Assembly: GCA_903832055.1 (NCBI GenBank)
Contig: CAILAC010000016.1
Coordinates: 682,001-746,000 of the forward strand
DNA: 64,000 bases
Direction of reading: 5' to 3'
Source of the DNA: an uncultured Acidobacteriota bacterium
Lineage (GTDB): Bacteria > Acidobacteriota > Terriglobia > Terriglobales > Acidobacteriaceae
Each line of letters starts with the position of its first letter. Position 1 is the stretch's first letter. Position numbers and translations under genes: made by a program. Shown here piece by piece: positions 24,111 to 25,433 of the stretch. The notes under the pieces were generated by a model. It saw nothing but the letters and a program-made list of their open reading frames with translations. It was not told the DNA's origin and did no database searches.

Positions 24111-25283
24111 TTATCCATTGATCAATTCCGAAAACTGCTCAACCGGCATCGCCTCAACCCCCGGCGCGACGGTTGTCATCGGCGGTTGATTCCGCGATTT
24201 GCGATGGACAATCAGCGCCCGGCTGACCCGCTCTGTCTCCGCGTTCGCAGCCTTTTTCAGTGCCAGCAGCGGATGCGCCATTGCAGACTGCACAGTCCGG
24301 CCGGCTTTCGCCTCCACCAGCCAGAACTGCGCATTCGCCTGCGGCACAAGAAAATCCACCTCCAGCCCCTGCCGGTCGCGGAAGCAATAGAGTTCCTTGC
24401 GTTGGCCTTGGTTAATCTGGCTCTTGAGTATCTCTGCTGCGACAAAGCCCTCAAAGATTGGCCCCAGAAACGGTGACCGCTCCAACTCCGCCTGCGTCTG
24501 AATACCCAGCAAATGGCAAGCCATCCCTGAGTCTCCCCAATAGACCTTGGGCGTCTTCACCAATCGCTTGCCAAAGTTTTCAAAGTACGGCTGCACCAGG
24601 ATGATCTGCCCCGTCACTTCCAGCACATACATCCACTCTGTAATCGTCGGCACACTCACGCCCAGCGGCGCAGCTAGGTCGGTCTTGTTCAAAAACTGCC
24701 CATGACGGCTCGCCAGCAGCGACAGAAATCGCCGAAACGCTGGCAGATCGCGCACCTGCGTAATCGCGCGCACATCCCGTTCGATATACGTTTGCAGATA
24801 CGATGCGTACCAGAGCGTGCGGCTGGCCGGATGCATCACCGGCTCCGGAAAACCGCCTCGCAGCATGTCTACCCGGGGCGATTCGGCGAGGCTGAAAGGC
24901 AGTAATTGCAGCACCGCCGCACGGCCAGCCATCGACTCCGTAATCCCCTGCATCAACGGTGCTTCCTGGGATCCGGTAAAGAGCCACTGCCCCATCCGCC
25001 GTGGGTGCGCATCAATCATCGTACGCGCATAGTCGAGCAGTCGCGGCGTATTCTGTATCTCATCAAGAATGGCTGGCAGTCGCAGGCTTTCGAGAAATGA
25101 TCGCGGGTCGCTGCGCACACGGTCCTGGATGTCCGGGTCTTCAAGCAGCACATATTGCGCCTTGGGCATTGACTGGCGCAACAGCGTGGTTTTGCCCGCG
25201 CGACGGGGCCCGGTGATGACCAGCGCTGGAAACTGACGCAGCGCTTTTTGCACCATTCCTGCGAGTTTTCGGGCCACAACCAT
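24111..25283 (-). CDS. Solitary AAA ATPase with DUF4143 (AAA_14 - winged helix - PD-(D/E)XK)
   Basis: A 390-residue protein. An AAA_14 domain has Walker A GPRRAGKTT (Lys31) and Walker B ILDEIQN. A helix-turn-helix-like middle (FLNKTDLAAPLGVSVPTITEWMY) follows. The DUF4143 C terminus keeps a nuclease-like D-x14-ExK pattern (Asp310, Glu324, Lys326 in FWLVEAKAG). Such genes are common, mobile and functionally obscure. The ATG at 25283 begins seven bases after a -10 box, so the mRNA may be leaderless. An in-frame TTG at 25319 lies inside the palindrome and is the alternative start. The gene is isolated, with a palindromic, AT-rich upstream region unlike its neighbours. Confidence 0.88.
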   Translation of the reverse strand: MVVARKLAGMVQKALRQFPALVITGPRRAGKTTLLRQSMPKAQYVLLEDPDIQDRVRSDPRSFLESLRLPAILDEIQNTPRLLDYARTMIDAHPRRMGQWLFTGSQEAPLMQGITESMAGRAAVLQLLPFSLAESPRVDMLRGGFPEPVMHPASRTLWYASYLQTYIERDVRAITQVRDLPAFRRFLSLLASRHGQFLNKTDLAAPLGVSVPTITEWMYVLEVTGQIILVQPYFENFGKRLVKTPKVYWGDSGMACHLLGIQTQAELERSPFLGPIFEGFVAAEILKSQINQGQRKELYCFRDRQGLEVDFLVPQANAQFWLVEAKAGRTVQSAMAHPLLALKKAANAETERVSRALIVHRKSRNQPPMTTVAPGVEAMPVEQFSELING

Positions 25284-25320
25284 GTTGACAAATCTAAGAT
25301 TCAATCTTAGATTTGTCAAC
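25284..25320. promoter_or_regulatory. Perfect 37-bp palindrome doubling as a symmetric promoter at the AAA/DUF4143 start codon
   Basis: The left arm GTTGACAAATCTAAGATT (18 bases) is exactly complementary to the right arm around one central base. Each strand reads TTGACA, 17 bases, TAGATT, which is a near-consensus sigma70 promoter. On the minus strand the -10 is followed by seven bases and then the ATG at 25283. That places transcription start at the start codon. A protein bound here would block both directions. Confidence 0.8.
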
Positions 25321-25396
25321 TTTAGTCAGGAAGCATAAGAGACTAAAGAGACTCAACTGCAAGCAGGTAACTGCACCACAACCGCGCTCTTGAAAT

Positions 25397-25433
25397 CATG
25401 ACAAATCTAAAGTATCACTTTAGATTTGTCATG
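25397..25433. promoter_or_regulatory. Second perfect 37-bp palindrome upstream of the AAA/DUF4143 gene
   Basis: The 17-base arms (CATGACAAATCTAAAGT) around a three-base centre share the core TGACAAATCTAA with the first palindrome, whose centre is 113 bases away. It has the same built-in layout: ATGACA, 17 bases, TAGATT on each strand. The surrounding intergenic DNA (25321-25569) is visibly AT-rich and no gene is seen in it. Confidence 0.75.

Follow-up and report, generated by a model that had tools for sequence, protein, structure and literature searches.

The window, that is, the whole stretch of 64,000 nucleotides analysed here, comes from an uncultured member of the Acidobacteriaceae (Acidobacteriota). 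As in several relatives, a gene for a protein with the AAA_14 and DUF4143 domains lies between sucD and a gene for an M13-type peptidase (Table 1). Both domains score above the curated Pfam cut-offs (AAA_14, 82.3 bits with a cut-off of 27; DUF4143, 148.1 bits with a cut-off of 28.1), and no NCBIfam or PHROGs family was matched. All seven PADLOC models of PDC-S01 were matched by the window protein (E 5.7e-96 for the model PDLC04790) and by both other proteins scanned. By these models the protein belongs to the phage-defence candidate type PDC-S01. In the accessible parts of one paper, PDC-S01 is described as an AAA_14/DUF4143 ATPase fused to a PD-(D/E)XK domain, the same architecture as here, and is ranked fourth by frequency among prokaryotic defences, with 9,986 detections in archaea and 29,494 in bacteria; most PDC candidates still await validation, and those parts of the paper mention neither an operator nor self-control for PDC-S01 (PMC12988326). 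It is also given as the most frequent single locus in the available text of a rumen survey (PMC13356809).

Table 1. The AAA_14/DUF4143 gene, its parts and the upstream palindromes in the window
Feature	Position	Strand	Remark
AAA_14 + DUF4143 gene, 390 aa, PADLOC PDC-S01	24111..25283	(-)	start ATG at 25283, set by homologues
AAA+ ATPase part, residues 1-135	24879..25283	(-)	Walker A around residues 25-33
Winged-helix part, residues 179-235, proposed DNA reader	24579..24749	(-)	predicted structure, pLDDT 95.3
PD-(D/E)XK-like nuclease part, residues 273-360	24204..24467	(-)	model and conserved residues
Palindrome 1, proposed operator that contains the core promoter	25284..25320	(-)	3' end adjoins ATG
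-35-like hexamer TTGACA, outer half-site of palindrome 1	25314..25319	(-)	
-10-like hexamer TAGATT of palindrome 1	25291..25296	(-)	17-nt spacer; 7 nt before ATG
Palindrome 2, second copy	25397..25433	(-)	centre-to-centre 113 bp from palindrome 1

In the predicted structure of the protein (pLDDT 95.3), the winged-helix part is made up of helices 180-192, 200-207 and 211-223 and a wing strand at 227-232. An alignment of 60 sequences (the window protein and 59 of the 104 prepared homologues) has E278, E308, D310 and K326 invariant and E324 in at least 90% of the rows, a residue pattern that I take to be the PD-(D/E)XK motif. The helix-turn-helix-like segment and the PD-(D/E)XK-like tail named in the initial annotation are supported by the predicted structure and the conserved residues. 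Foldseek returned AAA+ proteins, MalT, the Pyrococcus ATPase 2qen and the nucleases Cdn1 and Card1, all with TM below 0.5 (about 0.2 for the two nucleases). By single-sequence search no solved structure of the family was found; a profile search against structures gave matches of the ATPase region and weak ones, such as the MarR-like PA3341 regulator 2fbh (E 0.024).

Palindromes before the start codon

Palindrome 1 has 18-bp arms that are 100% complementary around one central base. Two perfect 37-bp palindromes had been reported in the initial annotation, which is true of palindrome 1; palindrome 2 is perfect in its 17-bp arms only (100% complementary), with three unpaired bases between them. 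The shared core was found to be 33 nt long at 79% identity, and TTGACA-17-TAGATT and ATGACA-17-TAGATT were located on both strands of the palindromes as described. These are the four promoter-like matches between 24000 and 26000, where 50 shuffles gave a mean of 0.9. On the minus strand the TAGATT of palindrome 1 is followed by TGTCAAC, the seven bases noted earlier, and then by the ATG. The reading frame is open further upstream, as far as a TTG at 25319. Since the elements of the homologues end within 2 nt of the codon corresponding to the ATG, this ATG was taken as the start. The 12-nt half-site TGACAAATCTAA occurs four times in the 4,568,361-base genome, each time in palindrome 1 or 2, and its reversed control pattern has no match there.

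A homologue with 97% identity (L008) has kept both palindromes, and a degenerate copy of palindrome 2 can be seen by eye in L009/L181. Palindrome 2 too places ATGACA-17-TAGATT on both strands and is a candidate second promoter. Two other origins of the palindromes were considered and rejected. A chance palindrome is ruled out by the genome-wide count of the half-site together with the excess of dyads at family starts, and a dispersed repeat (REP/REPIN or other) should have many copies, whereas the half-site has none outside the locus.

Is a dyad also found at the start of close AAA_14/DUF4143 homologues, as the initial annotation had proposed to check? The close-homologue set comprised 22 loci, of which L025 begins inside the gene and was left out. 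In all 21 with upstream sequence there is a 35-nt dyad element, often imperfect, with a -35 and a -10 inside it, and it ends no more than 2 nt from the start codon. The element has the form TTGA-N5-[CT/A]TAA...TCA, and the start codon follows at -2 to +1. The dyad score reaches 8 in 9 of the 20 homologues scored; in L023 and L026 the best-scoring palindrome is a different, overlapping one. Two nearly identical hold-outs (L214 and L215, 61-62% identity) have TTGACAAATCTAAAGT...TCA directly before the ATG, with a score of 7.5.

Covariation was assessed in 22 aligned elements, namely both window palindromes and 20 others, after two near-identical ones had been left out. Pairing was found in 82.7% of the arm cells, compared with 77.5% in shuffles and 27-43% in slid controls, and the covariation score exceeds all 500 shuffles and all slid controls. 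Two further measures are weak: eight pairs have changed on both sides (35 of 500 shuffles are as high), and there are 13 further pair types (66 of 500). Part of the asymmetry between the arms may arise because one arm matches the -35 and the other the -10.

Dyads and direct repeats across the family

Of 60 Acidobacteriota genomes, 33 contain DUF4143, some with as many as 17 matches. In the survey set, in which the own gene L007 is counted twice (also as L039), 26 of the 89 genes score 9 or more for a dyad close to the start, as do 15 of 504 control windows. A larger set of 156 genes was drawn from the survey, the close homologues, plasmids and a Verrucomicrobia search, by applying rules on start, length and duplicates to 171 HMM matches. 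Of 112 rows, three had no recognised Walker motif and were dropped before counting, and L059 was not entered. In the larger set, 59 of the 156 homologues score 8 or more, versus 5 of 150 other genes at the same loci; after thinning to below 50% identity, 25 of 71 do. Homologues lacking any palindrome, which the initial annotation had named as evidence against its reading, do occur in part of the family: 97 of the 156 are below the threshold and many of them show nothing, while eight carry direct repeats and weaker dyads are visible to the eye in some. By this score the dyad trait is common but not universal in the family. From the closest to the farthest homologues by profile score, dyads or repeats were found in 19/36, 34/70, 9/23, 4/18 and 1/9. 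Viral contigs and phage records, held out as a separate set, have dyads in 7 of 27 cases, versus 3 of 155 control windows.

The dyad score is highest in the 60-nt window whose centre lies 40 nt upstream of the start (22%); at the start it is 10% and elsewhere 1-7%, so that the peak is confined to the region of the start codon. A promoter match of at least 8 of 12 positions lies within 48% of 62 dyads, versus 16% of shuffled ones. An overlap of the dyad with the core promoter was thus found in the window, in the close homologues and in part of these 62 dyads. Flanks were compared for 153 of the 156 genes. In the 156 pairs with 65-80% protein identity, 27.5 of the 45 nt upstream of the start agree, compared with 15.5 and 15.3 in the two flanking controls, which is the level of unrelated pairs. 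Below 50% identity, operator similarity correlates with protein identity at r 0.18 (controls 0.015 and 0.035; permutation 0/500).

Direct repeats form a second architecture. Upstream of the start, eight genes (L036, L046, L047, L068, L069, L141, L143 and L163) contain a TTKCAATCWGCCG-like word in two to four copies at a spacing of 22 or 23 bp. They come from Acidobacteriota, from plasmids of Alphaproteobacteria and from a genome of the Verrucomicrobia search. The word is found in one orientation only; two copies in the opposite orientation were found in none of 153 genes. Its strict form occurs, among all loci collected, at five of the eight genes only. In a 29-row tree, the repeat genes make up eight of the nine rows of one branch with a support of 94/95, L082 being the exception, and two changes suffice for the repeat type, versus 7.2 for shuffled labels.

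Two paralogues in the window genome, L006 and L007 (35-37% identical), have the dyads CCTTGCATTTCTTCCACG...CAAGG and CCATGCAATCATG...CATGG at their starts. Thus, three family genes of one genome have three different dyads. A pattern built from the dyads of L006 and L007 has only two matches in the genome, those two. A dyad of the class B type, CCTTGCA...TGCAAGG, recurs next to members of the family, both in Acidobacteriota and in plasmids of the genera Phaeobacter, Cereibacter, Mesorhizobium and Sphingobium. Two patterns were used for scanning sets of genomes; they are strict, and many family members are missed. The window-type pattern matched two places in 61 genomes, and its control pattern none. 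One place directly precedes an intact family gene, at a distance of 1 nt. The other (G139, L213 2637-2970) is a perfect palindrome, followed after 123 nt by a remnant that matches residues 222-280 only, at 73%. The CCTTGCA-type pattern, run over 297 genomes, matched the two paralogues from which it was partly built; its two new matches each lie 0-2 nt ahead of a family gene. All four new sites of the two scans are therefore at the family: three abut a gene and one lies beside the remnant.

On the Thermus plasmid pTT27, TGAATGA-CTA-TCATTCA lies right before the ATG of the homologue TT_RS11170 (L135); this case was set aside and was not equated with TT_P0211. The latter is an AAA_14/DUF4143 gene that, according to the available part of the report, is up 6.6-fold in plasmid-bearing cells with TtAgo (PMC4406477).

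Proposed self-control and alternative readings

The position, symmetry, embedded promoter, conservation and gene-family specificity of the elements, in two architectures, are features of the sequences themselves. They suggest that the gene product reads and controls its own promoter. Relatives from several bacterial phyla have their own versions of the dyad. I consider it probable that the dyad is a gene-specific operator, of which the product is the likely reader, binding as a dimer and repressing its own, probably leaderless, transcript. The protein on the dyad would compete with RNA polymerase, since the -35 and -10 hexamers are both in the dyad arms. The gene product itself, an AAA+ ATPase with a winged helix and a PD-(D/E)XK part, is indicated as the most likely ligand because the site accompanies the family from phylum to phylum and changes from paralogue to paralogue; the winged helix would be a natural DNA reader, and ATP may have a role. 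From its position alone, repression is more likely than activation. Palindrome 2, centred 113 bp further upstream, would serve as an auxiliary operator. The proteins of one related group may read the 22-23-bp direct repeats, about two helical turns apart, as a head-to-tail oligomer.

Binding of the sites by the protein or a partner, and self-control, had been proposed in the initial annotation. The site goes with the gene and not with the genome, as self-control predicts, and on the other side stand the 97 homologues without a scored dyad. For a leaderless transcript, the geometry of the -10 and the ATG fits and is fixed among the close homologues, but SD-like sequences do not separate the dyad genes: they occur in 23 of 94 homologues that lack a dyad and in 4 of 27 with an abutting one, and so are about equally rare in both. 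The idea that the nuclease-like tail acts on the palindromes found no support among the results. As to the part of the protein that would read the site, the domain test is mixed and only suggestive. Regression on operator similarity gave 0.63 for the winged helix, 0.74 for the nuclease and 0.13 for the AAA part, with relatedness still in the data; among the 40 best single columns, six are in the winged helix while 5.8 are expected, so that the winged helix is not favoured by them.

A conserved operator tells only that some protein reads the site, and autoregulation is not given by sequence. Another host regulator might bind the dyad, the gene being part of a wider regulon. However, the half-site has no other occurrence in the genome, the three family genes of that genome have three different dyads, and the class B dyad is shared by family genes of Acidobacteriota and of four plasmid genera, a spread for which a common host regulator is not likely. 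I hold this reading to be unlikely. A different kind of alternative is an RNA hairpin over the start codon that controls translation or ends transcription; the compensatory changes are equally compatible with such a stem and with a DNA dyad. With the -35 and -10 in its arms, though, the hairpin would be left mostly untranscribed, and of the 62 dyads 35 stop more than 6 nt short of the start. In L222 (score 7.5) and L148 (5.5), both below the threshold and judged by eye, the dyad is upstream of an SD-like leader. Moreover, Rfam had no match between 24000 and 26000, and the palindromes are absent from the list of terminator-like sequences. A hairpin is very improbable on these grounds.

The palindromes could also be substrates of the nuclease (a cruciform or a cut site) or the ends of a mobile element, as the PD-(D/E)XK residues look intact and members of the genus differ in having or lacking the gene at one site. 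Yet the site sits in the chromosome that makes the protein, the genome has no copy elsewhere, and the palindromes are on one side of the gene only; many dyads regarded as functional are imperfect, and one group has direct repeats in their place. This reading appears quite improbable, and both the RNA and the cut-site readings are less likely than self-control by the gene product.

Comparison with known systems and the sucD-peptidase slot

As a type of regulation, autogenous control by way of a dyad in the promoter is already known. Autoregulated toxin-antitoxin modules are compact units whose product sits on a dyad over their own promoter. The present gene is like them in its compactness, in a product that is thought to bind the dyad of its own promoter, in its patchy presence and in the toxin-antitoxin genes near some plasmid copies; in contrast, it is a single gene with no antitoxin partner seen, and it encodes an AAA+ ATPase with a nuclease. 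The message of lambda cI from PRM is leaderless, and the promoter is overlapped by cI's own operators. A probable leaderless message from a promoter overlapped by its own operators is the likeness here, although there is no homology and the activation by cI belongs to the lambda system. With iteron-binding replication initiators the family shares direct repeats of 22-23 bp that adjoin a gene encoding an ATPase or winged-helix protein; unlike in iteron systems, no origin or replication role is indicated here, and the repeats are limited to one group. In the literature searched on the family and its operator, mostly outside subscription journals, no such operator was found. What appears to be new relative to that literature is that so widespread a family would carry promoter dyad control, in two architectures.

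If PDC-S01 genes carry their own operators, each has a predicted DNA ligand and a reporter, which would make a first biochemical test easy. The protein would then be a DNA-reading regulator and not a nuclease alone, and the operator gives a sequence signature for locating starts and family members. A further idea, tentative and in my view rather doubtful, is that PDC-S01 is a self-guarding switch in one polypeptide. An invader signal would pull the AAA+ protein off the promoter, where it sits as a dimer on dyads or as a head-to-tail stack on 22-23-bp repeats, so that the gene is derepressed and the nuclease is freed. If so, each gene's operator would reveal the DNA that its protein reads.

Within the genus, the gene is absent from the site between sucD and the peptidase gene in nine of the 12 judgeable peptidase loci (L179, L180, L182 and L184-L189) and present in three (the own locus L177, L178 and L181); L183 and L191 end too soon to be judged. 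No operator motif is left in the nine gene-free gaps. A mobile island was considered and rejected: the presence varies between relatives, yet there is no sign of transposition. In L189 (3622-4319, minus strand) the slot holds a Gp49-like gene (PF05973, above the cut-off) and a second small gene, the latter with no family match. By analogy this pair resembles a HigB-type toxin-antitoxin pair, and the slot may be a hotspot. According to annotation, the plasmid copies L136, L142 and L144 of the family adjoin HipA-family, CopG/RelE-ParE and AbiEii-type genes.
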